Of a stretch of 36,299 bases of DNA, positions 1,955 to 34,326 are shown in pieces. Numbering within the stretch: position 1 is the first letter of the stretch; each line of letters begins with the position of its first letter. Both the position numbers and the translations under genes were made by a program. Location of the stretch: the IMG/VR virus record IMGVR_UViG_3300042480_000715, positions 1 through 36,299 of that record, one strand, 5' to 3'. The notes below the pieces were generated by a model. The model worked only from the letters and a program-made list of their open reading frames with translations. It was not told the origin of the DNA and did not search any database. The stretch is from a virus.

Positions 1955-2680
1955 TTACTTTTTACTCGCACTAAATATGATATCACTCTTAGAGTATACA
2001 CACAATGAGCAAGAAACGCAAGCCGAGCCCTGCTTAGAAATAAGTGGAATCTGTTTATTATTTTCAGGACACTTAGCACCAGGTCTATTTGTTAATTCTT
2101 TCATGTCAGCCTGGCCAATAGCAAAATTCTTAGCAAGGTATGCAAGACGAATGCCATGATCGGTTTTAAGTCCAATACCAATAGACTTATTCTCACTGTC
2201 TGTTGAATAGTATAGTGATAGATTATCAATATTTTTAAGCATTACGGCTGCAGACTTAACACGTGTATATACCCAAAATTGAATATCAGGATTGTTAAGG
2301 ATGACATGCTTCCATGCGAATGTATAAGTATCATTAAAGAAATCTCCGTCCCAGTGAATGCGGAAGAGTAGGGGTGCGTCTTTCTTTACACAGTCTGCAC
2401 GAAAATCGTTAATCATATCAGTTAACAATTCTTCTATAGTATCATGGTCTGCGTCTTTGACTAGGTCCCAATTATGTAGTAGGTTAGCCTTTACTCCTTT
2501 GAAGAGTTTTTCAAGTTTTCCTGCATAGCAAACGCTTTCACAAACACTAGTGGCACCAGGGCACGAGAAAGCCTTTCCAGCAGGTAGTCCAAATGTGTTA
2601 GCGATTGTTGCGGTTTTTCCATTAGGTGAGACGGCATTAGCGACCTTTCTGTCAAATGATCTTTTTAGTTTAGTAGTCAA
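1955..2680 (-). CDS. gp88-family phage protein
   Basis: 241 residues. The N-terminus carries the family hallmark, a Cys-rich segment around residues 39-51 (CPGATSVCESVCYAG), and the C-terminus has CVSCSLC. The spaced Cys residues suggest metal or Fe-S binding. Similar proteins are widespread in actinobacteriophages and are named after mycobacteriophage gene product 88; their activity is not known to me. The start is a TTG overlapping the upstream zinc-ribbon gene by 11 nt, and the ribosome-binding site is weak, so expression probably depends on coupling. It is the third gene of the leftward operon that starts at 2983. Confidence 0.75.
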   Translation of the reverse strand: MTTKLKRSFDRKVANAVSPNGKTATIANTFGLPAGKAFSCPGATSVCESVCYAGKLEKLFKGVKANLLHNWDLVKDADHDTIEELLTDMINDFRADCVKKDAPLLFRIHWDGDFFNDTYTFAWKHVILNNPDIQFWVYTRVKSAAVMLKNIDNLSLYYSTDSENKSIGIGLKTDHGIRLAYLAKNFAIGQADMKELTNRPGAKCPENNKQIPLISKQGSACVSCSLCVYSKSDIIFSASKK

Positions 2681-9345: not shown

Positions 9346-9505
9346 AGAACAAAAATTAACTCCAGAGCAAGCACAAGCAATCTTATTATTTCAGATTGAG
9401 CAAAAACTAAGGATTAACATTGCAAAACAAGTAGAGCAAAAATTTCACGGTACTTATCATGGTGCCTCACACGACATAGCAAGTTTTATCCGTAATATGG
9501 CTTAA
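9338..9505 (+). CDS. Small helical protein
   Basis: 55 residues: MDEEQKLTPEQAQAILLFQI followed by a helix and a His-containing C-terminus (FHGTYHGASHD). The ATG overlaps the upstream gene by 8 nt. Its stop overlaps the convergent 2OG-oxygenase gene. Function unknown. Confidence 0.5.
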   Translation: MDEEQKLTPEQAQAILLFQIEQKLRINIAKQVEQKFHGTYHGASHDIASFIRNMA

Positions 9506-10083
9506 GGGTAATTAGACCCATCATGTTGTTCAACATCACCAAATAACTCTGGGTTTAATATAATTGGGCTATCAACAGATCCTCTAACAAATGCAGTAGA
9601 AAAATATCTAACAACATCGTTATTGACTTTTCTTGGACCATGCAATATATTACCACCATGCAAGATCAAAGATCTAGCCTTTGGCTTATGGATAATTCCA
9701 AGTTCTGGATATTCTATTTCTCCACCTAGATAATCATCATTATAATATATAACGATTCCATAACGAATATAATAATCTAAATCTTTAATCCAATAATCTC
9801 TATGTGGCTGCATAGGTTCTTGGTCAAAAGATCTTTGCAGCACAACATTTCCAAAATAGGCAAATTCATAAAAAAGGCTATTTAGGTTTTCATTTATTTC
9901 ATTAAAGAACTTTGGTAACTCTCCAGGTTTTTGTTTTCCATAAAAGAAAGTACCTTCTTGCTCTTTATCCCACCAGGCAGACTCTTCAAGGTTTTTACAA
10001 TACTCTAAAACCTTTTCTTGCTGTTCAACTGTTATAAAGTCTTCAATCTCATAAATATCGGGGGAGAGAAGGTTAGCCTTCAT
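9502..10083 (-). CDS. 2OG/Fe(II) oxygenase, prolyl-hydroxylase-like (no. 1)
   Basis: 193 residues. The double-stranded beta-helix core has the iron ligands H94-x-D96 and H148 and the 2-oxoglutarate-binding R159, with the family block YYNDDYLGGEIEYP and HKPKARSLILHGG. Such enzymes (2OG-FeII_Oxy_3/P4Hc type) hydroxylate protein side chains, often proline, using O2, Fe(II) and 2-oxoglutarate. It is the only one of nine in the window on the minus strand, downstream of two small genes with which it overlaps. Substrate unknown; a phage structural protein is inferred from the other eight. Confidence 0.85.
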   Translation of the reverse strand: MKANLLSPDIYEIEDFITVEQQEKVLEYCKNLEESAWWDKEQEGTFFYGKQKPGELPKFFNEINENLNSLFYEFAYFGNVVLQRSFDQEPMQPHRDYWIKDLDYYIRYGIVIYYNDDYLGGEIEYPELGIIHKPKARSLILHGGNILHGPRKVNNDVVRYFSTAFVRGSVDSPIILNPELFGDVEQHDGSNYP

Positions 10084-14414: not shown

Positions 14415-16574
14415 GTGGCAGCAGAAAATATTGACAAAACCCCTACGGGTACTGGGCCTTTTAACACCAAAATGCCAGGACTCGGAGATCCTGCCGATAT
14501 CCAAGCAGCATTAAGACTTTATCACTATGGATCAGACACTTATGATGCAGCAGCACAAACCCCAGGCCCTCTCCCAATCCCCTCAATTGCAAACTACCTT
14601 AAAACTCTTACAGATGCAATCGCTGCTGAAACAGCAGCACGTGTTGCTCATCAAAACAAGACAACAGATGTCCACGGTATAGCAAATACTGCAAATCTAG
14701 CATCACAGGCATATGTAATTAATGCTCTAGAAGGTGCTACAGCAGAATATCCAAACCTTGCAGGAGATGGCCTTGAATGGAACGGTATCGATGAAAGATT
14801 TGATCTTGATCCATCTCTACTAAATAATAATACTGTAGTAGTAAAGACATCTGCTTTTACTTTAGATCCCCTCGATGTTAATAAAACAATTTTTTTACAA
14901 ATGTCATCCCCAACAAACTTGTCTATCCCGCTAAATTCTGCTGTTAATATACCAATTGGATATAAATATAATTTAGTTGAAATTGGTTCAGCAAGAACAA
15001 CTTTTGTTCCAGCATCTGGAGTAACTGTTGGAAGTAAGAACTCACAACTATTTTTAGATGGAACTTACAGTAAAGGAACTCTTGTAAAGATTGCAACAGA
15101 TAGTTGGGTTTTGTATGGAGATGTTTATGAAGGCGTTGCAGTAGCACCTACACCAGCACCTACACCTGCTCCAACCCCAGCACCTACTCCAGCACCAACT
15201 CCTGCACCTACATCTACACCAACACCAACACCAACTTCAGGAACTCCTACTCCTACACCAACACCAACTTCAGGAACTCCTACTCCTACACCAACACCAA
15301 CTTCAGGAACTCCTACTCCTACACCAACACCAAGTTCAGGAACACCAACACCTACTCCAACACCAACTGCAATAATTGTTCCAACTCCAAGTCCAACACC
15401 AAGTTCAGGAACACCAACACCTACTCCAACACCAGGACCAACAGTCTGGTACTGCACATCAAATTATACTGAAGAGGCAGGAGGACAGTTTGAATGGGAT
15501 AGCAATATAACTGGATCTGTTTGTGGCGTTTCTGCTGTTGCATGTTCTACAGTTTCATACCCTGCACCACCAACTATTCCAAACTGTGTAACACCAACAC
15601 CAACACCAACACCAACTTCTGCAACAAGTCAATGGTATTGCTCTACAAGAGAAAATGATGGAACTACTGCTAATTACACAAGCGACACCAATAATACTAG
15701 TTGCAATAGCGTTGCTGCAACAATATGTGTTTATGGACCAGCAGGAACATCATATCCAGCATTCCCTGCATTCCCATGCAGTGGCACACCAACACCTGCG
15801 CCAACGCCTTCACCAACACCTACTCCAACGCCAACGGCCTCTCCTTGTAATCCAGACTGGAGTTTAATCCCTCAGTCACAATGTGCTGAATGTGGATTAG
15901 TATGGAATGCATCACTTGGTGAATGTGTTAGTACAGGAACACCAACACCAACACCAACTCCAACACCAACTCCAACTCCGACTTCAACAACAACCCCAGC
16001 ACCTACACCAACACCTACAAACAGTTTGTGTACAGATCCTTCAATTCTTAACCAATCACAATGCCAGGCTTGTGGATATTATTACAGCACAACATTTGGA
16101 GAGTGTTCTGCAACTCCATGGAATGGCACACCAGCACCAACTCCGACACCAACACCGACACCAACTCCTACTCCAACTCCTACTCCAACTCCAACTCCAA
16201 CTCCAACTCCAACTCCAACTCCAACACCAACACCAACACCTACTCCAACACCTACTCCATGTGCACAATTCTTCTGTGCAGCATACGGAGAATATATTTG
16301 TGTAGGAGATTTCTGTCCAAGCAATACACCTGCTCCAACCCCAGCACCTACACCTGCTCCAACCCCAGCACCTACACCTGCTCCAACCCCAGCACCTACA
16401 CCTGCTCCAACCCCAGCACCTACACCTGCTCCAACCCCAGCACCTACACCTGCTCCAACGACTGCTCCAACACCAGCACCTACACCAACACCAACATCAG
16501 CATGCACTGGATGTATTAGAAATTATTGCTATGAGCCTTGCCCATCATGCTGTAATGGCGATTGCGGATGCTAG
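14415..16574 (+). CDS. Giant Pro-Thr repeat fibre protein with Cys-rich modules
   Basis: 719 residues, GTG start with AGAGGTGAT upstream. Residues 1-115 are an attachment region including [13 protein letters not shown], as repeated in the 24735 adhesin. Residues 120-240 are a beta domain homologous to the adhesin's C-terminus (compare [13 protein letters not shown] and WVLYGDV). From residue about 244, long (PT)n and (PA/PT)n stretches separate five Cys-containing modules (for example [29 protein letters not shown]). The end is [20 protein letters not shown] plus CGC, nearly identical to the tail of the 26372 product. Pro and Thr residues are prime sites for hydroxylation and O-glycosylation, and the next operon encodes such enzymes. 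Secreted-mucin-like; likely a virion surface fibre. Confidence 0.75.
15140..16500 (+). repeat. Pro-Thr coding tandem repeats
   Basis: Blocks of ACACCAACACCAACT-type hexanucleotide repeats and a 24-nt unit CCTGCTCCAACCCCAGCACC(TACA) (16330-16460). They encode PTPT and PAPT runs and create spurious ORFs in all other frames. Copy number probably varies. Confidence 0.85.
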
Positions 16575-16619: not shown

Positions 16620-16859
16620 ATGTCAGAAGAACTAACTCCTTGGCAAAGATATAAACAAAATTTAGGAGAAACCAGGCCTTGGGATATTGTAAACCCTTCA
16701 ACAGAATGGGCACCTGCCGAGGTAGCAGAAGAAAGATACTCTATATGTAAAGCATGTCCAGAACTAATTAAATTAACAAAACAATGTAAAAAATGCGGAT
16801 GTTTTATGGTAGCAAAAACAAAACTACAAGGGGCAGTATGTCCATTAGGGAAATGGTAA
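16620..16859 (+). CDS. DUF6171-like Cys-rich protein
   Basis: 79 residues. C-terminal half: CKACPELIKLTKQCKKCGCF and CPLGKW, the pattern of the small phage/bacterial family DUF6171, with six Cys able to bind zinc or an Fe-S cluster. The N-terminus carries TPWQRYKQNLGETRPWD. Strong AAGGAG ribosome-binding site. It is the first gene of the operon with a 2OG oxygenase, radical SAM enzyme, glycosyltransferase and epimerase; an adaptor or carrier role is possible but untested. Confidence 0.7.
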   Translation: MSEELTPWQRYKQNLGETRPWDIVNPSTEWAPAEVAEERYSICKACPELIKLTKQCKKCGCFMVAKTKLQGAVCPLGKW

Positions 16860-16860
16860 T

Positions 16861-17532
16861 ATGGAAAAAATATTTTGGGAAAATGATAAAGGAATAATTT
16901 TTAACAAGTATAGAGCAATAGAAAGAACTGAGATTGCTCCTGGAATAATGTGTTATGAAAATGTAATACCCGAAGAAACTTTTAAAACTGTTGTTGTTGA
17001 TCTTGAAGAAGGAATGCAATCAGCGAGAATAGAATGGCTTGCAGCCCAGGTAAAAACTGGAGTTGGAGATTCTGTAGAGTCAAACGTAGACACAAAGTCA
17101 AGAGACACACAAACTATTAACATTCCGTATTCAGAAATAGAAAAAGACGATTACTCAGATATTGGAGCAGCATTTTACACTTCTATGGCTAATCTTTTTT
17201 TAGAAAATTTAGTTCCTTTAGAAATTAATTATCAAAATAATTACGGCATAGGTTGTTCATGGCATGACTCTTATCAAATATTAAAGTATGGAGTAGGTCA
17301 AAAATTTACAAATCATATAGATGATCATCCAGACTACCATAGAAGAGTATCAACCCTATATTATCTTAACGATAACTATTCTGGAGGAGAATTAAATTTT
17401 CCAAGATTTAATCTTTCTTTTAAGCCTAAAGCAAATCAGATGGTTATATTTCCTTCTACCTATGTTTACAATCATTCAGTATCTCCTGTTACTGAAGGAG
17501 AAAGATATGCAGTGGTTAGTTGGCTTAGATGA
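16861..17532 (+). CDS. 2OG/Fe(II) oxygenase, prolyl-hydroxylase-like (no. 2)
   Basis: 223 residues. Iron ligands H152-I-D154 and H205, 2OG-binding R215; core block LYYLNDNYSGGELNFPRF and SFKPKANQMVIFPS. N-terminal 130 residues are the usual helical support. It lies directly after the Pro-Thr fibre gene and its stop overlaps the radical SAM start (ATGA). Candidate substrate is a proline or other side chain in the neighbouring fibres (inference). Confidence 0.88.
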   Translation: MEKIFWENDKGIIFNKYRAIERTEIAPGIMCYENVIPEETFKTVVVDLEEGMQSARIEWLAAQVKTGVGDSVESNVDTKSRDTQTINIPYSEIEKDDYSDIGAAFYTSMANLFLENLVPLEINYQNNYGIGCSWHDSYQILKYGVGQKFTNHIDDHPDYHRRVSTLYYLNDNYSGGELNFPRFNLSFKPKANQMVIFPSTYVYNHSVSPVTEGERYAVVSWLR

Positions 17533-18464
17533 TAAAATTAGTTCAGTTAGACCCTAATGGTCTATGCAATCTTGGATGTTGGTTTTGTCCAGTAGCATAT
17601 GAAGAAAACCCAGTCATTGGGCGAGGCACCATGCCTATTGAGACAATTAGATCTGTTATTGAGCAATTAAAAAATGGTGTTGGAGATTTTGTAGATCCAT
17701 CATTTTCTTTTATTTATACAGCACACTATAATGAAGTTCTTCTTTATAAACACTTTAGAGAAATGCTTGACTTATTTAGAGAGCATGGACTTAGAACAAT
17801 GGTTCTTACCAATGGCTCTCCACTAACAAAAGACAAAATGGATATTATCAAAGAATACAGCGATGTTGTTGATATAATTCATTTTAATACCCCGTCTGCC
17901 GACGCTACCACTTGGGCAAAAATGACGGGCAAACCTGAAAAAATGCATCAAAGAGTTATGGATAATATTAGATACGCAATAGATAACTTTCCACATCAAA
18001 GAGTTTCAATGCAGGTAAACGGAATAAATGAAACTTCTCTTGGCTACATGGAGTTGTTAGAAAATGCTCCTGCAATAGACTTAAATGATAATACTGGAGA
18101 TACGGCTACTGCTGTAAAACAAATGAAAGAATCTTTTCCAGAAATAAGCATATATGCAAATACTTCTTTGGTTGATAGAGCAGGATATCTAGATACCCGT
18201 GGAATAATGAAAAACCAGATAACTGGCAAAGGAAGTGTTGTTGGTTGTAACAATATGGGCAGCAGACCAGACACCTGGATTCACATAAACGCTAACGGCG
18301 CTGTGTTTCTTTGCTGTAATGACTATGATTTTGAAACGGTATTTGGAAATGTAAATGATACTCCAATAAAGGAAATTTGGGAAAGTCAAGAAAGAAAGGA
18401 CATGATCAAGCATTCATATGAGAACTTTTGTACAACTTGTATTCATGCTATATGGAAAGAATAA
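17529..18464 (+). CDS. Radical SAM/SPASM-type enzyme
   Basis: 311 residues. CNLGCWFC (C13, C17, C20) is the CxxxCxxC site of the [4Fe-4S]-SAM cluster. The C-terminal region carries C240, CC at 262-263 and C301-x2-C304, the Cys pattern of a SPASM domain binding auxiliary clusters. SPASM enzymes typically modify peptides or proteins (sactipeptide, mycofactocin, anSME types). It overlaps both the oxygenase and the glycosyltransferase genes, so these three are translated together. Substrate unknown; the Cys- and Pro-rich fibre proteins are the obvious local candidates. Confidence 0.8.
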   Translation: MIKLVQLDPNGLCNLGCWFCPVAYEENPVIGRGTMPIETIRSVIEQLKNGVGDFVDPSFSFIYTAHYNEVLLYKHFREMLDLFREHGLRTMVLTNGSPLTKDKMDIIKEYSDVVDIIHFNTPSADATTWAKMTGKPEKMHQRVMDNIRYAIDNFPHQRVSMQVNGINETSLGYMELLENAPAIDLNDNTGDTATAVKQMKESFPEISIYANTSLVDRAGYLDTRGIMKNQITGKGSVVGCNNMGSRPDTWIHINANGAVFLCCNDYDFETVFGNVNDTPIKEIWESQERKDMIKHSYENFCTTCIHAIWKE

Positions 18465-19378
18465 TGAAAAAAAGCATCTTTATTCAAATAACATCTTATC
18501 ATGACTATGAACTTGAGAAGACTATAAGAAATGCTATAGATAAGTCATCAGGAGAAACAGAACTAGTTTTTGGTGTGCATTCAATTTTTTATGAAGACAA
18601 TTCTTGGATTGAGCCAGTAAGAAATATTGCTAATGTTAAGTTAATTGAAAGCAAAGCCCCAGAAAATCTTGGAATGGGGCTTGGTCGAGCCATCGCTCAT
18701 GATTTGTATAATGGAGAAGACTACTACTTTCAAATAGATGCTCATAGCAGGTTTGATCAGAACTGGGACACATTCTTAATAAACGAAATAGATACTCACA
18801 AAGGTAATGGATTTAAAAAGCCCTTAATTAGTCAGTACCCAAAGCCATTCTGGTACGAAGGCGATACAGAAAAAGTAAATCAACATAAAGAGGTCGTTAC
18901 TCAATTTTATTGGAAAGATAAAGAAAGATTTAAACACAACAGAATGCCAATGCAGGGCACTGTTTTAAATCCAGAAGGAAACATATTTTCCATCTCTGTA
19001 TCTGGAGGGTCTATTTTTACAGAAGGAGAATTCATAAAGCCAAACAAACTAATATTTGCTGACGGTGAAGAAATATTTATGGCAGCAAGAGCATATACTA
19101 GCGGATATGACTTCTTTGTTCCAAGCGAGATGTTTATGTATCATCTTTATTACGGCACAGAGGGTAAAAACGCAAGAAGGACTGTATACCCAGACTGGCC
19201 AGAACAAACAGCAGAACTAAATAAAATATCTGTTGACGAAATTAGGTTTGTATTAAGTGGAGAAGGAATAGTCGGAGAAGGAAGACTTGGAACAGAAAGA
19301 ACTTTATCTGAATACGGAAAGTTTTGTGGACTTGACTTTGTTAACGGAGAAATTTTAGACAATTATTATGAGTTCTAA
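18464..19378 (+). CDS. GlcNAc-transferase-like glycosyltransferase (GT60-like)
   Basis: 304 residues from the ATG at 18464 (TAATG overlap); the upstream ORF extension is rejected. FIQITSYHDYELEKTIRNAI, NLGMGLGRAIAHDLYNGED and FQIDAHSRF (DxH metal motif at 92-94) match the GlcNAc family (PF11397), which includes the Dictyostelium Skp1 hydroxyproline GlcNAc-transferase. Predicted to transfer HexNAc from a UDP-sugar to hydroxyproline or Ser/Thr in protein. The link to prolyl-hydroxylase-like neighbours and a Pro-Thr fibre is striking. Confidence 0.78.
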   Translation: MKKSIFIQITSYHDYELEKTIRNAIDKSSGETELVFGVHSIFYEDNSWIEPVRNIANVKLIESKAPENLGMGLGRAIAHDLYNGEDYYFQIDAHSRFDQNWDTFLINEIDTHKGNGFKKPLISQYPKPFWYEGDTEKVNQHKEVVTQFYWKDKERFKHNRMPMQGTVLNPEGNIFSISVSGGSIFTEGEFIKPNKLIFADGEEIFMAARAYTSGYDFFVPSEMFMYHLYYGTEGKNARRTVYPDWPEQTAELNKISVDEIRFVLSGEGIVGEGRLGTERTLSEYGKFCGLDFVNGEILDNYYEF

Positions 19379-20159
19379 AGTATTAGTAACTGGGTCTCGT
19401 GGGTATGTAGGAACTGCAACAAAAGAGTTGTTGGAAGATTACGGATATGAAGTAGTTGAAATAGATAGAAAAATTAATAAAGACACAAGGCTAATATTTA
19501 AGCACATTAAGCCAAATACTCTATCTTACATAATTCATCTATCTGCTAAAAAGTCTATTCAAGATTCTATAAAATATCCACTTTCATATTATATGAATAA
19601 TCTTTTTTCAACATTTATTATCGGAATGACCTCTAGATTTTTTGATATCCCAGTTGTATTTGCTTCCTCAGCAGCAGTCTATAATCCTTATAATCCATAC
19701 GCCAAGTCAAAACTTTTAGAAGAGAAGATCTTAAAGTCTTTATGCAAAAAACTTGTTATATTAAGATATTTTAACATTGTTGGAAAATCTAGTAAAACAA
19801 AAGACGATCAAAGTGGAAACATATTTTCAATAATTAACAAAGATCCAAACATAAGAATAAACAGCATCTCTTCAACAAGAGACTATGTTCATGTTTTAGA
19901 TATAGCAAAAGCCAATGTCTTATCTATTGAGTACCTTAAAGATAATGACTTTTTGCTTACAGATATTTTTACTGGAAACCAGTTTACTATGATTGATGTG
20001 GTAAATGAGTACAAGGCTAATGGTGTTATTATTAATTATACCGTTTTGCATTTGCCAGACCTAACGGTTCTACCAGAAATAGATAACAGAGACCTTCTTG
20101 GATGGTTTCCTTCTTACACTTTCTCAGATGGCGTTAAGTCAGAGATTAGTTTTAGATAA
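19368..20159 (+). CDS. GalE-like UDP-sugar epimerase
   Basis: 263 residues, shorter than classical GalE (about 330). Extended SDR fold: TGSRGYVG nucleotide-binding motif (8-15), SSAAVY (100-105), catalytic Y111-AKS-K115, then ILRYFNIVG and RDYVHVLDIA typical of UDP-glucose/GlcNAc 4-epimerases. The start overlaps the glycosyltransferase gene by 11 nt. It probably supplies UDP-Gal or UDP-GalNAc for the neighbouring transferase. A bidirectional terminator follows. Confidence 0.8.
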   Translation: MSSKVLVTGSRGYVGTATKELLEDYGYEVVEIDRKINKDTRLIFKHIKPNTLSYIIHLSAKKSIQDSIKYPLSYYMNNLFSTFIIGMTSRFFDIPVVFASSAAVYNPYNPYAKSKLLEEKILKSLCKKLVILRYFNIVGKSSKTKDDQSGNIFSIINKDPNIRINSISSTRDYVHVLDIAKANVLSIEYLKDNDFLLTDIFTGNQFTMIDVVNEYKANGVIINYTVLHLPDLTVLPEIDNRDLLGWFPSYTFSDGVKSEISFR

Positions 20160-20162
20160 TAA

Positions 20163-20200
20163 AATACCCCCAAGGATTTCTCCAAGGGGGTATTCTTTTT
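20163..20200. terminator. Bidirectional intrinsic terminator
   Basis: AATACCCCC paired with GGGGGTATT (20163-20194), inner GGA/TCC pairs, then TC and T5 on the plus strand. It separates the convergent epimerase and lysin genes. Confidence 0.9.
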
Positions 20201-24734: not shown

Positions 24735-26339
24735 ATGGCAACAAGAATGCAACAGCGCAGAGGTACTGCAGCACAATGGACGGCTGCAAACCCAATTCTA
24801 GCAGCAGGTGAGATCGGTTTTGAAACCGACACAAGTAAGTTTAAGATGGGTAATGGCTCATCTACATGGTCAGCATTACAGTACTTTGCTAATGCATCAG
24901 AACTAGCAGCCATCATCGGTGGCGACATGCCAGCACTTCTCAATTCTCTTGATGAGTTGGCACAAGCGATCAATGATGATCCACAATTTTATCTAACAAT
25001 GGGAACAAACCTAACAAACCACCAAAATGATACAACTATGATTCACGGTATTGTTGACACTGCTCTTCTTGCAACAACAGGAGATGTTAATACAGCAGCA
25101 ACAGGAGCAGCAGTAGCACTAGCAGCACACGAAGCAGATACAACAAATGTTCACGGAATTGCTGACACATCATTGCTACTAACTACAGCACATGAATCAG
25201 ACACAACAAACATTCATGGAATTGCAGATACTTCACTTCTAGCAACTACAGCAAATGTTGCAACTGCCTTATCTTCTGCTAGTTCAGCACTTACAGCACA
25301 CGAAGCAGACACAACAAATGTTCACGGCATTGCAGATACTTCAGTTCTAGCAACTGTTACAAATGTATCAACCGCTAAGTCAGAAGCAATTGCAGATGCT
25401 GCAACAGCAGCAGATGGCAAGGTATCAACACATAATTCAGACACAACAGATGTTCACGGTATTGGAGATACATCACTTCTAGCAACAACTTCAGACATTA
25501 CAGCACATAACCTAGAAACAGAAAATGTTCACGGAATTGCTGATACATCTGTTCTTGTAACACAGACACAACTTACAGATGCAGTTAACGGAGCAGTTGT
25601 AGACCAATCAACACTTGCTGGTGTTGGAATTGACTGGAATGCAACTTCAGAAGCATTTGATATTGATTCAACTGTAGCAACCAAGACATATGCAGATGAT
25701 GCAGTTTCAACACACAACTCTGACACAACAAATGTCCATGGTATTGCAGACACATCACTTCTTGCAACAACTGCAGATGTGGCAGCAGTTACAAAAACCA
25801 CACTAGGACTTGGAAATGTTGACAATACATCAGATGCTGACAAGCCAGTTTCAACAGCAACTGTAACAGCAATCGCAACAGCAAAGTCTGAAGCAATTGC
25901 AGAAGTAACAGCAGTTATTGATGGTGCACCAAACGCACTTAACACCCTTAACGAACTTGCTGCAGCACTTGGCGATGACGCTAACTTTGCTTCAACAGTT
26001 ACAGCATCACTTGCAGCAAAGGTAGATTCATACACACCAATTACACAAAAGACAGCATCTTATACTCTATCAACGCTAGATCACAGAGATGATTTAATTG
26101 AAATGAATTCAGCATCAGCACTTACATTAACAATTCCGCTAAATTCATCAATTGCTTACCCAGTAGGAACATCTTTAGATATTCTTCAAACTGGTGCAGG
26201 TCAAGTAACGATTGCTGGAGCAGCAGGAGTTACCGTAAATGCAACACCAGGTCTTAAGTTGAGAACTCAGTGGTCATCTGCAACTCTTTTCAAGAGAGCA
26301 GAAAACACATGGGTTGTCTACGGCGATTTGACAGCGTAA
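24735..26339 (+). CDS. Mtd-N-type adhesin with HGIADTS repeats
   Basis: 534 residues. Residues 1-50 (QQRRGTAAQWTAANPILAAG, IGFETDTSKFKMGNGSSTW) match the N-terminal domain of the Bordetella phage major tropism determinant family. The middle carries about seven VHGIADTSLLATT-like repeats spaced by Ala/Thr-rich segments. The C-terminal 100 residues are a beta domain shared with the 14415 fibre (TIPLNSSIAYPVGTSL, WVVYGDL). A trimeric receptor-binding fibre is likely. No adjacent reverse transcriptase or variable repeat was seen. Confidence 0.75.
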   Translation: MATRMQQRRGTAAQWTAANPILAAGEIGFETDTSKFKMGNGSSTWSALQYFANASELAAIIGGDMPALLNSLDELAQAINDDPQFYLTMGTNLTNHQNDTTMIHGIVDTALLATTGDVNTAATGAAVALAAHEADTTNVHGIADTSLLLTTAHESDTTNIHGIADTSLLATTANVATALSSASSALTAHEADTTNVHGIADTSVLATVTNVSTAKSEAIADAATAADGKVSTHNSDTTDVHGIGDTSLLATTSDITAHNLETENVHGIADTSVLVTQTQLTDAVNGAVVDQSTLAGVGIDWNATSEAFDIDSTVATKTYADDAVSTHNSDTTNVHGIADTSLLATTADVAAVTKTTLGLGNVDNTSDADKPVSTATVTAIATAKSEAIAEVTAVIDGAPNALNTLNELAAALGDDANFASTVTASLAAKVDSYTPITQKTASYTLSTLDHRDDLIEMNSASALTLTIPLNSSIAYPVGTSLDILQTGAGQVTIAGAAGVTVNATPGLKLRTQWSSATLFKRAENTWVVYGDLTA

Positions 26340-26371: not shown

Positions 26372-27310
26372 ATGGCAGCAGGTAAGAAGATAGGTAAAAA
26401 GTCCCAAGCGTCAAATGACTTTTTGGAGCCTTTAGCACCAACAGGTGTTTCAGCAGCAAATGTAGGAACAGGAAGAGCATTTAATAATGGTGCAGCCACT
26501 GTTTCTTTTTCTTTACCAGCACTTTCTCCTGCTGCCACATCTTTTACAGTAACAGCAAGCACAGGACAGACAGCAACTGGAGCATCATCTCCATTAACTG
26601 TAACTGGAATTGCTTCGTCAGCAACACCAACATTTACAGTAACAGCGACTAACGCTGCAGGAACTTCTGCTGCATCTGCTGCATCTGCTGCAATAACTAT
26701 TACAACAGTACCAGCAACTCCTTCAGCACCAGTTGCTACAGCAGGAGTAGATCAGGATACAGTTACTTGGACAGCACCAGCAAATGGTGGATCTGCGATA
26801 ACTAGTTATACCTGGGCATCATCAGATGGAAAGGGAGCCACAACAGCAGGAACTTCGGCATCACCTACCCAAGAAGCAAATACAGCACAGACATATACAG
26901 TTTATGCAACAAACGCTAATGGTAACTCTGCAGTGTCACCAGCATCTAATAACGTAACTACTATTGCTCCGTTCTTCCCATTCTTCCCATTCTTCCCTCC
27001 ATTTTTCCCACCATTCTTTCCGTTCTTCCCATTCTTCCCCCCATTCTTCCCACCGTTCTTCCCGTTCTTCCCACCATTCTTCCCACCATTCTTCCCGTTC
27101 TTCCCACCGTTCTTCCCACCATTCTTCCCATTCTTCCCACCATTCTTCCCATTCTTCCCGTTCTTCCCATTCTTCCCACCGTTCTTCCCATTCTTCCCGT
27201 TCTTCCCACCGTTCTTCCCACCAACCTTCTCTAGCAGTGGTTGTTCAGGATGTATCAGAAGTTATTGCTGGCAAGCATGTCCTGGTTGCTGCGGTAGTTG
27301 TGGATGCTAA
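26372..27310 (+). CDS. Fn3-domain fibre with Phe-Phe-Pro repeat and Cys tail
   Basis: 312 residues, AGGAG ribosome-binding site. After a basic start, two fibronectin-III-like domains fill residues about 22-197 (for example VATAGVDQDTVTWTAPANGG). Residues 200-283 are only Phe and Pro in FFP/FFPP units, about two dozen FF pairs. The end, CSGCIRSYCWQACPGCCGSC plus GC, is nearly the tail of the Pro-Thr fibre at 14415. A Phe/Pro rod of this length is unusual. The Pro residues are candidate hydroxylase substrates; the Cys tail could crosslink or bind metal. Structural/virion location inferred. Confidence 0.7.
   Translation: MAAGKKIGKKSQASNDFLEPLAPTGVSAANVGTGRAFNNGAATVSFSLPALSPAATSFTVTASTGQTATGASSPLTVTGIASSATPTFTVTATNAAGTSAASAASAAITITTVPATPSAPVATAGVDQDTVTWTAPANGGSAITSYTWASSDGKGATTAGTSASPTQEANTAQTYTVYATNANGNSAVSPASNNVTTIAPFFPFFPFFPPFFPPFFPFFPFFPPFFPPFFPFFPPFFPPFFPFFPPFFPPFFPFFPPFFPFFPFFPFFPPFFPFFPFFPPFFPPTFSSSGCSGCIRSYCWQACPGCCGSCGC
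26965..27225 (+). repeat. Pyrimidine-rich TTCTTCCCA repeat tract
   Basis: Near-tandem TTCTTCCC(A/G) units encoding FFP/FFPP. The coding strand is almost all C and T. All other frames over it are artefacts. Confidence 0.85.
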
Positions 27311-27848: not shown

Positions 27849-28562
27849 ATGACAACTTATGATGAAAATGAGACCCCTTGGTTTACTAAGGATAGATCAG
27901 AAACTGCAGTAAACAGATATCCATCAAGAACTATTGAAAACAATGTTTTAGTTGAAAACCCAGCATTAGGAATCAATCTATATAGAAACGTATTTTCAAA
28001 AGAAGACTCTGAAAGATACATAAAGATTCTAGAGTCAAATCTTGGCGGGAATGGTAAATATAAATGGTCAGAAGCAAAAGTAACTAATTCTGATGTTCCA
28101 ATTAAGAAGGCCAGAGATGCAGTAGACTTTAGATTTAAGCAAGAAAACTTAGGGCCAAGAGATGAACATAATTCTGAACTTATTGATCTTCATGAAGAAA
28201 TTTATCAAAAGTTAAAGTTGTGCGTTGATGATTATGCTAGATATTGGGGTATCAATGTTGTATATTATGAGGCATTTAACTTTGTAAAATACGAAGGACA
28301 AGGAACTCACTTTAACATACACGCAGACCACGGCCCAATGTACAACTGTACAGTGTCTGCTGTTATCTACATTAATGAAGACTATGAGGGTGGCGAAATT
28401 AGATTTCCAAGAATGGACAACTACACACATGCTCCAAAAATAGGAGATATTGTTCTCTGCCCATCAAACTATATCTATGAACATGCTTCATTGCCTATGA
28501 AAGAGGGAACAAAGTATTGTGTTGTCGTAATGACAGACATTAATGAACTAGGACACAAGTAG
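27849..28562 (+). CDS. 2OG/Fe(II) oxygenase, prolyl-hydroxylase-like (no. 3)
   Basis: 237 residues. H158-A-D160 and H212 bind iron; the 2OG site is K222, as in collagen-type prolyl 4-hydroxylases. Core block VIYINEDYEGGEIRFPRM. It is close in sequence to the 29340 product (shared EAFNFVKY, HADHG/HHDHG and YNCT). First gene of the downstream modification cluster; its stop overlaps the GTG of the next gene. Confidence 0.88.
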   Translation: MTTYDENETPWFTKDRSETAVNRYPSRTIENNVLVENPALGINLYRNVFSKEDSERYIKILESNLGGNGKYKWSEAKVTNSDVPIKKARDAVDFRFKQENLGPRDEHNSELIDLHEEIYQKLKLCVDDYARYWGINVVYYEAFNFVKYEGQGTHFNIHADHGPMYNCTVSAVIYINEDYEGGEIRFPRMDNYTHAPKIGDIVLCPSNYIYEHASLPMKEGTKYCVVVMTDINELGHK

Positions 28563-29329
28563 TGTCTTTAATCGCCAAGTTTAGATCCTTCAGGCCCTGG
28601 TTAGATAAAGAAAACATTTCTACACCAGTCCCAACACAAAAAGAAATGCCAGATTGGTATAAAGACGCAGACAGATTTGCTAAAATGCCAAACGGAGAAT
28701 ACTACAAAGCACCAAAAGAGGTTTGTCCATTTCCTAAAGAAGGCACAACAGATGATTATGGGAAGATACCTACATGGAAAGCATGTCCTGCAATTATGGA
28801 TGCGTTTGCAACTGGATATGTATTTAAAACTCCTTGTGACCTAACATTTGCTAAAAATTCTCAGGGTATAATTAATGTCACAATTGATGACCCCAAGTAT
28901 AAAGACTTTTGTACACAAAGACCACCAATGCCACAGTTCGAACATCCTAAAGGGTATTACCAATACCATTTTGCATGGAGTTCACCATGGGGTCTAGAGT
29001 TACCAGAAGGATATAGCGCATTATTTATGACACCAATGAATAGGTTTGATCTTCCGTTTATGAACACAACTGGAGTTGTAGACTCTGACAAAGTTCATCT
29101 TCTTGGAAGTTTCCCATTTTTTATAGCAGAAGGCTGGGAAGGAACGCTTCCTGCTGGAACCCCATACATGCAGGTACTTCCATTTAAAAGAGAAAACTGG
29201 GAACACGAGATAGAGATTTTAGGACAGTCTGAGATATATGGTAAAATGGTAGATAACGCAAAATTCTATCGGCAACCTGATGGAGGAGTGTACATTAAAA
29301 AAGTTTGGTCCCGCAGAGAATATAAATAA
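28562..29329 (+). CDS. Cupin-like phage protein of unknown function
   Basis: 255 residues, GTG start overlapping the previous TAG. KEMPDWYKDADRFAKMPNGE, CPAIMDAFATGYVFKTPCDL and LPAGTPYMQVLPFKRENWEH resemble conserved proteins in marine and freshwater phages. The PAGTP motif and beta-rich C-terminus also occur in the DUF6065-like 30023 product. Such proteins often accompany 2OG oxygenases; function unknown. A strand-rich jelly-roll is inferred. Confidence 0.6.
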   Translation: MSLIAKFRSFRPWLDKENISTPVPTQKEMPDWYKDADRFAKMPNGEYYKAPKEVCPFPKEGTTDDYGKIPTWKACPAIMDAFATGYVFKTPCDLTFAKNSQGIINVTIDDPKYKDFCTQRPPMPQFEHPKGYYQYHFAWSSPWGLELPEGYSALFMTPMNRFDLPFMNTTGVVDSDKVHLLGSFPFFIAEGWEGTLPAGTPYMQVLPFKRENWEHEIEILGQSEIYGKMVDNAKFYRQPDGGVYIKKVWSRREYK

Positions 29330-29339
29330 GGAGAATACA

Positions 29340-30023
29340 ATGCAGACATGGACAGAAAAAGAAGATCTTGGCAATGGAATTATTTGCTATAGAGGCGTAA
29401 TTAAAAAAGAGTTTGATGTAATAAACAGACTTGAGGCCAATCTAGGATCAGTTGCTGGATATGGAGAGTTGTCAGCAGAAGGAAAAAGATACCACTGGAT
29501 GCCAGCATACGTAGGATATCAACAACTTATGCCAGACTATAGGGACTGCGTTGACTTTAAGTTTAAGAAAACAGATATAGAATTAGATAAAAGCCAAGAC
29601 TCACTAAATCTTCAAGCATTATGGCAAGACATCTATGACGCACAGTTTGCAGCAGTAGAAGATTACAGAAGAGACTACAACATCATGCCACTTAAATATT
29701 GGGAGGCATTTAATTTTATTAAGTATGGCCCAGGCCAACACTTTAAAGAGCATCACGATCATGGATATTCTTACAACTGCACTCTTTCTTTGGTCGCATA
29801 TGTAAATGATGATTATGATGGTGGAGAACTATTCTTTAGATTGCAGGGTTTAAATATTAAGCCAAAGGCTGGGGATCTTTATGTATTCCCATCTAACTTT
29901 ATGTACCCTCATCAAGCAATGCCAGTACACTCTGGTACAAAGTATTCAATCGTTACTATGCTAGATTACAGCAAAAAGTATCATACACCAGACATGTATG
30001 ATTCAAAATGGGATCAAGAGTAA
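29340..30023 (+). CDS. 2OG/Fe(II) oxygenase, prolyl-hydroxylase-like (no. 4)
   Basis: 227 residues from the ATG at 29340 (AAGGAG upstream); the ORF extension is rejected. H138-H-D140, H191 and K201. Core block AYVNDDYDGGELFFRLQG and NIKPKAGDLYVFPS. Paralogue of no. 3, probably by duplication with the cupin-like gene inserted between. Lys in the 2OG site again fits P4H-type chemistry. Confidence 0.88.
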   Translation: MQTWTEKEDLGNGIICYRGVIKKEFDVINRLEANLGSVAGYGELSAEGKRYHWMPAYVGYQQLMPDYRDCVDFKFKKTDIELDKSQDSLNLQALWQDIYDAQFAAVEDYRRDYNIMPLKYWEAFNFIKYGPGQHFKEHHDHGYSYNCTLSLVAYVNDDYDGGELFFRLQGLNIKPKAGDLYVFPSNFMYPHQAMPVHSGTKYSIVTMLDYSKKYHTPDMYDSKWDQE

Positions 30024-30739
30024 TGCTAAATATTTCAGTAGAAAAAATGCAAGGTAGTAACTTTGAGATTAGTCCAATGTCAATTAAAAGAGATTGGATG
30101 GACGAAACCTCAGACAATCATGCATATAGATGTTTTCCAGTAACACAGGCAAATGTCATTGGATGGAACCTTTCTTGCACAGAAGATATTGAGTTTGAGT
30201 GGGACGGAATAACTGATCAAACAGATCAACATGTAACAATATTTAGTCCGACAGGCTCTTATGCTGGAAGAGGACAGGCCTCCATAAGTTTAAACACTAG
30301 TTTGGTTTTTAGAACAGATCCCAACATTAGCATTTGGACAATTAATCCAGTAAATTATTTTAGCGAAGACTTTGAAACTTTGTCTAACTTAGTTAGCACA
30401 TCTTTTTATCCTAATCCACTTCCATTAGCAATTAAAGCAAGAAAAGCAAATCAAAGAGTGGTCATAAAAGCAGGAACTCCAATAGCAACTATTATTCCGA
30501 TATCTCTAACAAATCTAAATAACACAACCATAGAACTTGTTGAGTATAAGGATGAAGACAGATCAAAAGAAAATGCAAATAGGGCCTATGGTGAAGCAGC
30601 ACAAGAAGTTAATAAATCTGGACAATGGACAGACTGGTATAGAGATGCTGTTAATGAAAAGGGAGAAAGTCTAGGCTCTCATGAAGTAAAAGCATTAAAA
30701 CTTTCAGTTAAAAATAATATGAATGGTGATACAATATGA
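30023..30739 (+). CDS. DUF6065-like protein
   Basis: 238 residues from the ATG overlapping the upstream TAA; an in-gene ATG at 30008 is less likely. HAYRCFPVTQANVIGWNLSC is the DUF6065 hallmark (Cys-Pro, Ala-Asn, Gly-Trp), and KAGTPIATIIPISL recalls the 28562 product. Beta-rich. Function unknown; in this phage it stands between two hydroxylase genes and overlaps the next by ATGA. Confidence 0.6.
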   Translation: MLNISVEKMQGSNFEISPMSIKRDWMDETSDNHAYRCFPVTQANVIGWNLSCTEDIEFEWDGITDQTDQHVTIFSPTGSYAGRGQASISLNTSLVFRTDPNISIWTINPVNYFSEDFETLSNLVSTSFYPNPLPLAIKARKANQRVVIKAGTPIATIIPISLTNLNNTTIELVEYKDEDRSKENANRAYGEAAQEVNKSGQWTDWYRDAVNEKGESLGSHEVKALKLSVKNNMNGDTI

Positions 30740-31410
30740 ACATGGACGAATATAAGGTAGTACAAAGAAAGCCATCAATCACACCCTCTGGCTGGTTCGG
30801 TGATGGCAAAGAAATGATCGTTGAGTTAGAAAACTTTATGACAGAACAAGAAATAGAGTTTTTAGAAAAGGCTGCAAAGTCATTGACGATTTGGGATGTT
30901 ACTGAAAGCCATGTAAATGAAAATGGAACAGTCGTTTATGATTCAGACTACTGGAAAGATAGGGTTGCAACTAGTCCTACATTAGATAAAAACGATCCAT
31001 CAATTGCACCAATAATTGCAGGACTGTTTGAAAGACTAAAGCCAATCGTCGAAGAGTTTTATAAGGTAAAGGTTACTCCTACTGGAACAACTATCGTTAG
31101 ATGGCTTCCAGGGCAGTTTCAGAAGCCTCACGCAGACAAAGAACTGCATGAAGGTCCAGATGCAGGACTTCCAAATGATTTTCCAAATTACGACCTTTCA
31201 AGCCTTTTCTATTTAAACGAAGACTATGAAGGCGGAGAGTTATACTTTCCAAATCAGGGTGTTCAGTTTAAGCCAAAGAAGGGTGCTGCTTATTTTTTCC
31301 CAGGGGATATGAATTATATTCACGGAGTAACAGAAATTAAGAGTGGTATTAGATACACCTGTCCATTCTTTTGGGAAATTACAGAGCATACAGGAGACAG
31401 AAAGCCATGA
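30736..31410 (+). CDS. 2OG/Fe(II) oxygenase, prolyl-hydroxylase-like (no. 5)
   Basis: 224 residues. H132-A-D134, H196 and R206. Core block FYLNEDYEGGELYFPNQG and FKPKKGAAYFFPGD. Like several others in this cluster it is joined to both neighbours by ATGA overlaps. R at the 2OG position separates it from nos. 3, 4, 6 and 9. Confidence 0.88.
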   Translation: MNMDEYKVVQRKPSITPSGWFGDGKEMIVELENFMTEQEIEFLEKAAKSLTIWDVTESHVNENGTVVYDSDYWKDRVATSPTLDKNDPSIAPIIAGLFERLKPIVEEFYKVKVTPTGTTIVRWLPGQFQKPHADKELHEGPDAGLPNDFPNYDLSSLFYLNEDYEGGELYFPNQGVQFKPKKGAAYFFPGDMNYIHGVTEIKSGIRYTCPFFWEITEHTGDRKP

Positions 31411-32279
31411 CAGAGCCTCTCAATGTAATTGAAGTATACCCAAAGATTTTTGTATATAAAGGTCTTTTTAAAGACATTCATAAGACCTATAGTCTTTTGA
31501 AGGAGTCACAAGGAGAAGAAGATGGACTATTTAGTCCATGGTCACCATGGTCAAGGTTTGGCGAATACATTAATCCAATTTTTAGAACATATCATGATAA
31601 TTTAAAAATAGATCATGTTGAAAAAGTAGCAACCTCAACAGAAAAACAAGAAGAGCACAAGCAAGTTCTTTTAGAAATTCTTAATAATTTTATGATAGCA
31701 ACAAAAGACTATATTGCAAAGAACAATGTTGATTTTGATGAAAACAGACTTATCCCAGACATCAAAGATGAAAGAGGGAACGATGTTAAGGAGTGGGAAT
31801 ACACAGGACCATCTATAGCAAGATATAAGATAGACATTGAAGACCCACTAGCAATGACATACCACACAGACTATATAAGAGAGCCAATAGTAAGCCCAGG
31901 ACATAAGTTTGCAATTACTGCTTTAACATACTTTAACGATGACTATGAGGGTGGAGAAATTGACTTTATAGCAAATGGTGAGGCATATATGTATAAGCCA
32001 GAGGCTGGAGATCTTCTTGTTTTCCCATCAGGACATCCAGAATTTTTGATGTCTGAAGAGTCTATCTATCTTCATGGAGTTATGCCTGTAAATCACAATT
32101 CGAAGTACCTTTCAAGAATGTACTGGACAAAGTACTCTGTCGGTGCCCCAGAGTGGTTTGAAAATGAAGAAAAGTTTGGTAAAGAAAAGTGGCAAGAAAT
32201 GCAACAAGATATTATGCAAAAGTTTAGAGATGACAATCCAAACAGAAATAATGCTGACAAAGAAAGAAGGATAAAATGA
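31407..32279 (+). CDS. 2OG/Fe(II) oxygenase, prolyl-hydroxylase-like (no. 6)
   Basis: 290 residues from the ATG at 31407 (ATGA overlap). The longest of the set. H153-T-D155, H223 and K233. Core block TYFNDDYEGGEIDFIANG and YKPEAGDLLVFPSG. Extra N-terminal helical region and a charged C-terminal tail (about 50 residues). Substrate specificity may differ from its neighbours. Confidence 0.87.
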   Translation: MTEPLNVIEVYPKIFVYKGLFKDIHKTYSLLKESQGEEDGLFSPWSPWSRFGEYINPIFRTYHDNLKIDHVEKVATSTEKQEEHKQVLLEILNNFMIATKDYIAKNNVDFDENRLIPDIKDERGNDVKEWEYTGPSIARYKIDIEDPLAMTYHTDYIREPIVSPGHKFAITALTYFNDDYEGGEIDFIANGEAYMYKPEAGDLLVFPSGHPEFLMSEESIYLHGVMPVNHNSKYLSRMYWTKYSVGAPEWFENEEKFGKEKWQEMQQDIMQKFRDDNPNRNNADKERRIK

Positions 32280-33022
32280 ACCTAGATAACAAAAAAAGAA
32301 TAACAAAGGATATTGTTGTTTATGAAAACTTTATTGATGCAGACACTGCTGCTAAACTTGTAAAGGTTTTAGATAAGCATGCAGAACTTGGATTAATTAC
32401 ATGGATGCCAATATCATTCTATGAGTCTTATTCTTCAGTATTGCCACAAGACAATGATGAGCATGTAGAGAATGAGAAACTGCCAAGCGATATATTCTCA
32501 CAAATTAAGCAAGGAATTATTGATGCTGTTGCAAGTGTTCACGATCTTGATCCAAAAATAATTTCTCAAATTGGGTACCACACACAGAAGTGGGAACCAG
32601 GAGCCTATGCAAGAAAGCATTCTGACAACACAGACGAGCATGGCCACTCTGGTGCTTTTACAAGAAGTAGATATGCAGCATTTTTATATTTGAACGATGA
32701 CTTCGAAGGTGGCATGTTGCAGTTCCCAGATCAAGAGATAAGCCTTCAACCTAAAGTTGGAATGCTTGCTGCATTTGACGGGGGATTTAACAATATGCAC
32801 GAAGTAACTCTTATAACCAGTGGGGTTAGATATACCATCGGCTCATTCTGGGATGATAGAGAAGAGTCTGATTACCCTCAAGAACTAAGAGATGCCTGGG
32901 CTGCAGAAATGAAAGAGACCAGAGCAAAGCAAGAAATTGAAAGAGCAGAATGGCAAGAGTTGCTAAAGCAGGGATGGAAACTTGATGCTGACGGAAACAA
33001 GTATAAGGTTGAGGATCTATAA
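32276..33022 (+). CDS. 2OG/Fe(II) oxygenase, prolyl-hydroxylase-like (no. 7)
   Basis: 248 residues. H115-S-D117, H175 and R185. Core block LYLNDDFEGGMLQFPDQE. The segment after HxD is His-rich (NTDEHGHSG). The last 50 residues form a charged helix (EMKETRAKQEIERAEWQELL) absent from most of the set, perhaps a docking arm. The next gene starts directly at its stop codon. Confidence 0.87.
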   Translation: MNLDNKKRITKDIVVYENFIDADTAAKLVKVLDKHAELGLITWMPISFYESYSSVLPQDNDEHVENEKLPSDIFSQIKQGIIDAVASVHDLDPKIISQIGYHTQKWEPGAYARKHSDNTDEHGHSGAFTRSRYAAFLYLNDDFEGGMLQFPDQEISLQPKVGMLAAFDGGFNNMHEVTLITSGVRYTIGSFWDDREESDYPQELRDAWAAEMKETRAKQEIERAEWQELLKQGWKLDADGNKYKVEDL

Positions 33023-33685
33023 ATGGAAGTATTTTTAAAAAAAGAGTTTGACGATGCTGGCTATAGTACTGAAGTCTTTCATGATCATGTTTTGTTTGTA
33101 AAAGATTTTTTGCAACCAGAAGAACTAGAAACTATTTTAGAAATAATTGATACCACCCCTAACGAAGACTGGGCTATAGAGTATACAAAAAATCTTGCTA
33201 GATTCTGTATGGAAAAGTTTGGCAGAGATGATGTAGATAACCTGGTCGCAGAAGGTAAATTTGAAATTACCCAAGGCTGGGAAGATAAGAATCTAAATAT
33301 TACAACTAAACAAATAAGCACAACTCTTCAAGGTAGACTGGGGAAACTACTAGAACTAGCAGACCCATCTTTAGAACTTGCTGGATTTGGAACACTTCAA
33401 AGAATGCAGGCTGGTGTTGAGTTAAAGGCTCATACAGACCAACACACAGATCCATCCATTAGATATGCTGCTATACTATACATTAATGATGACTATAAGG
33501 ATGGAACTTTGTTCTTTAAGAATAAGGAAGATTCAGACTTAAGGCCAAAACCAGGAACATTGCTTATTTTCCCAGGAAACGAAGAATATGAGCATGGAGT
33601 AAGGTTTGTAGGAGAAGGACCCATAAGATATGTTACCGTAGGATTTATGAAAGTAACAGGTTTTTATGAGAAAAATAAATACTAA
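33023..33685 (+). CDS. 2OG/Fe(II) oxygenase, prolyl-hydroxylase-like (no. 8)
   Basis: 220 residues. H137-T-D139, H191 and R202. Core block LYINDDYKDGTLFFKNKE, with the usual GGE changed to DGT, and RPKPGTLLIFPGNEEYEHG. TAAATG junction with the previous gene. The altered loop may change the substrate pocket. Confidence 0.86.
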   Translation: MEVFLKKEFDDAGYSTEVFHDHVLFVKDFLQPEELETILEIIDTTPNEDWAIEYTKNLARFCMEKFGRDDVDNLVAEGKFEITQGWEDKNLNITTKQISTTLQGRLGKLLELADPSLELAGFGTLQRMQAGVELKAHTDQHTDPSIRYAAILYINDDYKDGTLFFKNKEDSDLRPKPGTLLIFPGNEEYEHGVRFVGEGPIRYVTVGFMKVTGFYEKNKY

Positions 33686-33696
33686 GGAGATATAAA

Positions 33697-34326
33697 ATGG
33701 ACAGAGAAATACTTGAAGAAAAGGTTTATTATTACACAAACGTAATAGAAGACCCTAAGAAACTTGTTGATGCAATTGAGAACGACAACAAGGATGAATG
33801 GGGCGAGTGGATGGCATGTAGTGGCCAGCACTATGTCTATGGAACAGATAAAACTATTGCATTAACTGCAGAGGCTGATGAAAAAGATAAGTACATCTAC
33901 AATACTTTACAAAAGGCGTTTGATGATGTTGCAAGAGATTACGCAAAGGCTCAAGGTATCACGGATGAACCAAAACTGTTTCCTCAGTATCCAATCAAGA
34001 AGTATCAGGCAGGAACATACATGGGTGCTCACTTTGATCAGCAAGAGGGAGATGAGAGACTAAAGGTTTCTTTCGTAATGTATCTTAACGATGATTATGA
34101 AGGCGGAGAACTATCTTTCACTATTGCTTCCCCAGACGGTGTTTTGCAACACTCAAGCCCAGAAGCAGATTTTGAAGAAGCAAAGCACAATGGAAACTAT
34201 ACTTTTGCTATTAAGCCAAAGGCTGGAAGCATTATTGTATTCCCACCATCACCACCATATCATCACACTGCCCACCTAGTTAAAAGCGGTGAAAAGATTA
34301 TGGTTCCTCAACACTGGATTCACTAG
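33697..34326 (+). CDS. 2OG/Fe(II) oxygenase, prolyl-hydroxylase-like (no. 9)
   Basis: 209 residues with AAGGAG ribosome-binding site. H112-F-D114, distal H193 (YHHTAH) and K200. Core block MYLNDDYEGGELSF; an insertion of about 25 residues (VLQHSSPEADFEEAKHNG) precedes AIKPKAGSIIVFPP. Fourth member with Lys in the 2OG site. Last oxygenase of the run. Confidence 0.86.
   Translation: MDREILEEKVYYYTNVIEDPKKLVDAIENDNKDEWGEWMACSGQHYVYGTDKTIALTAEADEKDKYIYNTLQKAFDDVARDYAKAQGITDEPKLFPQYPIKKYQAGTYMGAHFDQQEGDERLKVSFVMYLNDDYEGGELSFTIASPDGVLQHSSPEADFEEAKHNGNYTFAIKPKAGSIIVFPPSPPYHHTAHLVKSGEKIMVPQHWIH

Follow-up and report, generated by a model that had tools for sequence, protein, structure and literature searches.

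A candidate O-glycosylation cassette with a radical SAM enzyme beside a proline/threonine-rich tail-fibre-like gene in an uncultured freshwater virus

Gene order downstream of a tail-fibre-like gene

We analysed positions 1–36,299 of the uncultured virus record IMGVR_UViG_3300042480_000715, a freshwater virus of bacteria; this whole stretch of 36,299 nt is here called the window. On the forward strand, the window encodes a tail-fibre-like protein of 719 aa (14415..16574), the putative substrate of the enzymes encoded downstream. It was recognised from its sequence and from PHROG matches of its N-terminal half (minor tail protein, 1e-10; virion structural protein, 2e-6). In its C-terminal half, PTPTP or PAPTP linkers alternate with small Cys modules (28 Cys), a Cys-rich tail forms the C-terminus, and the final 489 residues contain no Lys. 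A further fibre-like protein in the window, of the FFPPFFPP type, ends in a near-identical Cys tail (C[ST]GCIRxYCxxxCPxCC...CGC-stop; 16506-16574 and 27240-27307, respectively), and the remaining C-terminal halves of the two proteins differ.

The run that follows, also on the forward strand, starts 45 bases 3' of the fibre-like gene with the gene of a Cys-rich, DUF6171-like protein of 79 aa (16620..16859). This protein scores 26.3 bits against PF19668, just below the cut-off of 27, and matches phrog_13558 with 4e-16; it is probably metal-binding. One base after its stop, the gene of a P4H-like 2OG-Fe(II) oxygenase begins (16861..17532; PF13640 4e-20), whose stop overlaps via ATGA with the start of a radical SAM gene (17529..18464; PF04055 6e-13, PF13186 9e-13) that has a C-terminal twitch-type auxiliary-cluster domain. 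The radical SAM gene shares one base, in TAATG, with the gene of a GT60-family glycosyltransferase (18464..19378; PF11397, GlcNAc, 2.6e-35), and this gene in turn overlaps by 11 bases with that of a GalE-like NDP-sugar epimerase/SDR of 263 aa (19368..20159; PF01370 1e-23; TIGR01179 galE 6e-27, which is under the model's cut-off). Between convergent genes at the end of the run lies a terminator-like hairpin (20160..20195), seen in the sequence and listed by the terminator scan on the reverse strand only. The promoter scan of the window returned no more sites than were found in shuffles.

The first-pass annotation had described 16620-18464 as a radical SAM enzyme fused in translation to a P4H-like enzyme and a glycosyltransferase, preceded by a Cys-rich DUF6171-like protein. 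The preceding gene and both overlaps are present as described, but the region ends too early, as the glycosyltransferase and the epimerase continue the run to 20159. The fusion holds as translational coupling and not as a protein fusion in the window, though some related viruses, among them L069 and L088, do carry a real fusion of this radical SAM enzyme to another glycosyltransferase domain.

Outside the run, the window contains a GP88 gene (1955-2680, reverse strand), an SLT_3 lysozyme-like gene with Streptomyces-phage relatives (20206-20838, reverse strand) and an Mtd_N (tropism determinant) domain (24735-26339). From these genes, an actinobacterial host appears plausible.

Neighbourhoods of the radical SAM gene and linkers of the fibre-like proteins

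A first scan for relatives of the radical SAM enzyme yielded 57 viral loci, and two further scans extended these to 120 loci from uncultured aquatic viruses, corresponding to more than 100 relatives. No relative was found by tblastn in 50,697 GenBank phage records, and the GenBank phage collection likewise contained no relative of the GT60 enzyme. A cellular origin was considered and set aside, as no relative turned up when 84,980 cellular genomes were scanned for patterns, although the two short patterns used have limited sensitivity and distant relatives can escape them. In the main clade, the gene order is fibre, a protein of about 140 aa, DUF6171, an optional P4H, radical SAM, GT60 and epimerase, and this order recurs over 52–100% identity. 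As the order recurs in 57 viral loci and the radical SAM gene is directly followed by GT60 in 67 of 120, the arrangement is not due to chance.

The other clades have different partners. A second clade has the radical SAM enzyme fused to, or encoded after, a domain of about 313 aa, right behind a poly-threonine protein. This domain has no match in Pfam; its AlphaFold model (pLDDT 90) identifies it by fold as GT-A (WbbM 2.5e-6, UGGT, glycogenin). We had suspected an HPAT/GT95-like identity, and this was dropped because the fold search gave GT-A only. Elsewhere, the partner is a GT2 (L070/71), a GDP-mannose dehydratase (L072/75) or a UDP-sugar dehydrogenase (L109, L117), or GT60 lies on the opposite side (L067, L068, L115). 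When radical SAM clusters are defined at 60% identity, 9 of 13 have a glycosyltransferase or nucleotide-sugar enzyme beside or near the gene; the four that lack an adjoining one are the jumbo-phage group, L112-114, L106 and L111. In the jumbo-phage clade (L076, L083, L095-L100), a class II ribonucleotide reductase immediately precedes the radical SAM gene; both belong to a conserved block, and no sugar gene lies nearby. One 206-kb record (G016) carries two diverged copies of this block about 146 kb apart, with poly-Thr proteins at least 60 kb from each.

Thr/Pro-rich genes are concentrated one to five genes upstream of the radical SAM gene: they account for 57 of the 356 genes at these positions and for 8 of the 692 at other positions of these loci (Fisher 2e-20, although p-values here overstate independence because of the relatedness of the loci). 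The neighbourhood survey proposed in the first-pass annotation thus finds both Thr/Pro-rich fibre genes and glycosyltransferases recurring nearby. As a refutation of the idea, that annotation had named homologues that belong to nucleotide-sugar synthesis and are unconnected with fibres. This applies by half: some homologues lie beside nucleotide-sugar enzymes and have no adjacent fibre gene, but most lie beside both such enzymes and a fibre gene.

The composition of the linkers follows the presence of the oxygenase. Where a P4H gene lies between fibre and enzyme, linkers are proline-rich (median proline fraction 0.29, n=21), whereas loci without P4H have threonine-rich linkers of the TTTTTAAP type (0.09, n=64; p=5e-8, indicative only given the relatedness of the loci). 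The association is also seen beyond the group to which the window belongs, for example with FFPPFFPP proteins in L017, L046 and L167. Exceptions exist in both directions: L042 and L135 have P4H but few prolines, and L070, L178 and L189 have PTP repeats without a nearby P4H. The fibre-like protein of L042 (3408-6401) has a C-terminus that looks like the Hint/intein type (...WFFVSGILIHNK). The P4H-like protein of the window clearly passes the curated cut-off of PF13640 (73 bits compared to 27), keeps the HxD...H...R/K residues and matches the bacterial P4H structures 3itq/5hv0 in the PDB (4e-9). Together with the tracking of proline-rich linkers, this makes it a predicted prolyl hydroxylase. Nine 2OG-Fe(II)-oxygenase-like genes are present in the 36 kb (9502-10083 on the reverse strand, 16861-17532 and others within 27849-34326), all with an intact HxD...H...R/K pattern. 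Seven of them are clustered behind the FFPPFFPP protein, with two small uncharacterised proteins interspersed. DUF6065-like proteins also occur among these oxygenases; one (30008-30739) matches PF19541 with 7e-32, and the other (28562-29329) matches only a PHROG without known function.

The glycosyltransferase also passes its curated cut-off (PF11397, GT60; 123 bits compared to 21), with a QxDSH/QxDAH motif that is conserved in A3, and is predicted to be a polypeptide alpha-GlcNAc transferase. In mucin domains of T. cruzi and Dictyostelium, GT60 enzymes transfer alpha-GlcNAc onto Thr (PMC8724618, PMC6939170, PMC3769586), and on Skp1 a GT60 enzyme transfers it onto hydroxyproline after hydroxylation by PhyA (PMC6939170; PMC8724618). 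The T. cruzi mucin acceptor is KPPTTTTTTTTKPP, and the mucins contain about 50% Thr, 10% Ala and 9% Pro (PMC3769586); phage linkers without P4H have a mean composition of 44% Thr, 13% Ala and 10% Pro. The two linker types, P4H-associated and proline-rich or threonine-rich, thus mirror the two known types of GT60 acceptor.

The association between GT60 and the radical SAM gene is not obligate. GT60 loci amount to at least 570 stretches. Of 25 radical SAM records examined, 18 carry GT60, whereas of 24 records selected because their GT60 locus has no radical SAM gene nearby, 23 lack a full-length one throughout the record (fragments are possible). This suggests that the radical SAM enzyme is a tailoring addition and not a requirement of GT60. 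Among GT60 loci, the GalE-like epimerase is more frequent with the radical SAM gene (26/47) than without it (5/45, p=7e-6), a comparison that is biased by an epimerase HMM built from radical SAM loci. The DUF6171-like gene recurs beside the radical SAM gene as well (31/47 compared to 21/45 without it, p=0.09). As it is present in GT60 loci that lack a radical SAM gene too, its product is not a dedicated substrate, and a role as RiPP precursor was rejected.

Relatives and candidate substrates of the radical SAM enzyme

The radical SAM protein has 311 aa, with the CX3CX2C motif starting at residue 13 (C13, C17, C20). Five Cys of the C-terminal domain (C240, C262, C263, C301, C304) are each kept in 125 or more of the 126 homologues compared. 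Twitch-type enzymes are defined by CX3CX2C plus a four-Cys site, with one Cys on each side of a beta-hairpin and two after a helix (PMC6231123). Based on the AF2 secondary structure and the alignment to BtrN, the Cys placement agrees with this definition and fits a single-cluster twitch domain, so that one BtrN-like auxiliary cluster is predicted. The SPASM identity given in the first-pass annotation is not borne out, as these five Cys, and not a seven-Cys motif, are what the C-terminal domain conserves among the 126 homologues. BtrN is also the nearest solved relative (2e-10 by profile, 1e-10 by fold), and the other top folds include both sugar-modifying (DesII, BlsE) and peptide-modifying enzymes (SuiB, CteB). 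Membership in a named NCBIfam radical SAM family was rejected because all matches, RiPP maturases included, score far below cut-off (DynA, 31.5 of 450 bits). For enzymes of this subfamily, sequence is a poor guide to function (PMC6231123).

We considered what the enzyme might act on. The first-pass annotation had proposed a RiPP-like modification of a virion protein, and its link to a fibre is retained, with Thr/Pro-rich genes one to five genes upstream. A RiPP-like maturase that forms thioether or other crosslinks in the fibre Cys modules could be expected from the Cys modules and conserved Cys tail of the adjoining fibre and from low-scoring matches to maturases of dynobactin, sactipeptides and cyclophanes, but we judge it improbable. 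Besides the missing seven-Cys motif, Pfam detects no RRE/PqqD, the N-terminal recognition element that serves as a criterion for RiPP-maturing SPASM enzymes (PMC6231123), in any of 16 family members. Fibres are no richer in Cys at loci that have the enzyme than at loci that lack it (46 and 41 per 1000, respectively, p=0.56), so that Cys crosslinking is not supported as its role; Cys-rich fibres also occur in GT60 records without a radical SAM gene, and L058 has both enzymes and no Cys after its T-rich stretch. The absent recognition element, the twitch-type Cys, the kinship to BtrN, the flat Cys density and the epimerase enrichment, in a neighbourhood of glycosyltransferases and nucleotide-sugar enzymes, make a sugar, in our view, a more likely substrate than a Cys-rich peptide.

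Alternatively, the enzyme might act on the T/P-rich stalk polypeptide itself, for example by oxidation or epimerisation of Thr or Pro, and so prepare or follow glycosylation. The T/P-rich neighbours stay constant while the glycosyltransferases vary, several being unrelated, so that the polypeptide could be the common factor; the peptide and protein enzymes SuiB, CteB, EpeE and anSME also rank high in the fold list. We nevertheless regard this as unlikely, as the enzyme lacks a recognition element, GT60 and T/P-rich fibres exist without any radical SAM gene, and the nucleotide-sugar enzymes of L072, L075, L109 and L117 have no adjacent T/P-rich gene. A modification of host surface glycans for superinfection exclusion, and not of the virion, would be the usual reading for glycosyltransferases in pelagimyophage host-recognition clusters (PMC7029224), yet here it has a low probability: the GT60 literature describes this family as polypeptide glycosyltransferases, and the cassette goes together with T/P-rich genes, as does the P4H with the proline content of these genes. 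That these are unrelated auxiliary genes of cofactor or nucleotide metabolism, brought together by chance, might be suggested by the ribonucleotide reductase neighbour in the jumbo-phage clade. Given the synteny over 52–100% identity and the protein fusion of a glycosyltransferase to the radical SAM enzyme, this explanation is already disfavoured, and we consider it highly improbable.

A proposed glycosylation scheme for the fibre-like protein

A phage glycosyltransferase gene is linked to a structural gene at this locus, which is the gene-level criterion for phage virion glycosylation. The genomic context gives good support to the fibre as the target of the cassette, and the cassette probably modifies this neighbouring protein, which is presumed to be part of the virion. 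In the O-glycosylation scheme that we propose for the proline/threonine-rich fibre-like protein, the P4H-like oxygenase would hydroxylate prolines of the PTPTP linkers, and the GT60 enzyme would glycosylate hydroxyproline and/or threonine with alpha-GlcNAc or a related HexNAc. The GalE-like epimerase would supply or interconvert the nucleotide sugar. The radical SAM enzyme, with its single predicted auxiliary cluster, may tailor a sugar through a radical reaction such as dehydrogenation or epimerisation, acting on it while nucleotide-bound or once attached. We hold this full scheme, including the radical tailoring of the sugar, to be somewhat better than an even bet, and our confidence in any particular radical SAM reaction is lower. 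P4H needs O2 and radical SAM enzymes are usually O2-sensitive, which counts against the combined scheme.

The closest parallels are the protist GT60 enzymes (T. cruzi TcOGNT, Dictyostelium Gnt2, and Skp1 Gnt1 with PhyA). They belong to the same family by the curated Pfam cut-off and use the same two kinds of acceptor sequence, Thr-rich and mucin-like or proline with a prolyl hydroxylase. In contrast, the phage enzyme is viral, lies in an operon-like run with a radical SAM gene, and has a presumed tail-fibre-like acceptor and a predicted activity. For mycobacteriophages, glycans are reported on structural proteins of the phage itself (Freeman et al. 2023, as presented in PMC12619734), which is what we propose for the present virus; as described there, they are found on capsid and tail-tube C-termini, whereas the present case would involve a mucin-like fibre with P4H and a radical SAM enzyme added. 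BtrN, a 2-deoxy-scyllo-inosamine dehydrogenase, shares the CX3CX2C motif, the four-Cys auxiliary site and the twitch placement, but acts on a free aminocyclitol and has about 16% identity to our enzyme over the structural alignment. A virus-encoded P4H is also known from PBCV-1, where the substrates are viral proline-containing peptides (Eriksson et al. 1999, as presented in PMC9301287); PBCV-1 is, however, an algal virus, and its treatment in PMC9301287 describes no GT60 or radical SAM partner. A further parallel is offered by the pelagimyophage host-recognition clusters, where aquatic phages carry radical SAM and glycosyltransferase genes in their tail-fibre region (PMC7029224). The parallel concerns gene types, and the cassettes were interpreted there as LPS modification or left unexplained.

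In a Baltic study, prolyl 4-hydroxylase, galE and a radical SAM gene annotated as 'ahbD' were abundant among virus auxiliary metabolic genes, with the use of the viral hydroxylase termed cryptic and the ahbD inference speculative (PMC9301287). The cassette that we describe offers one candidate role for these abundant viral genes, namely a mucin-like sugar coat on tail fibres. More tentatively, and with rather less confidence than in the scheme as a whole, we suggest that a virus-specific radical SAM family, whose members are joined to a glycosyltransferase in a single protein in some phages, makes a radical change on the glycans, or on the glycosylated Thr or hydroxyproline, of a mucin-like stalk, in a P4H-GT60-radical SAM pathway unseen in cells and comparable to the glycosylation of protist mucins and Skp1. 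If the scheme is true, it would add a viral way of making polypeptide alpha-GlcNAc, and perhaps a new radical carbohydrate chemistry, and the sugar coat would influence adsorption, host range, fibre stiffness and protease resistance.
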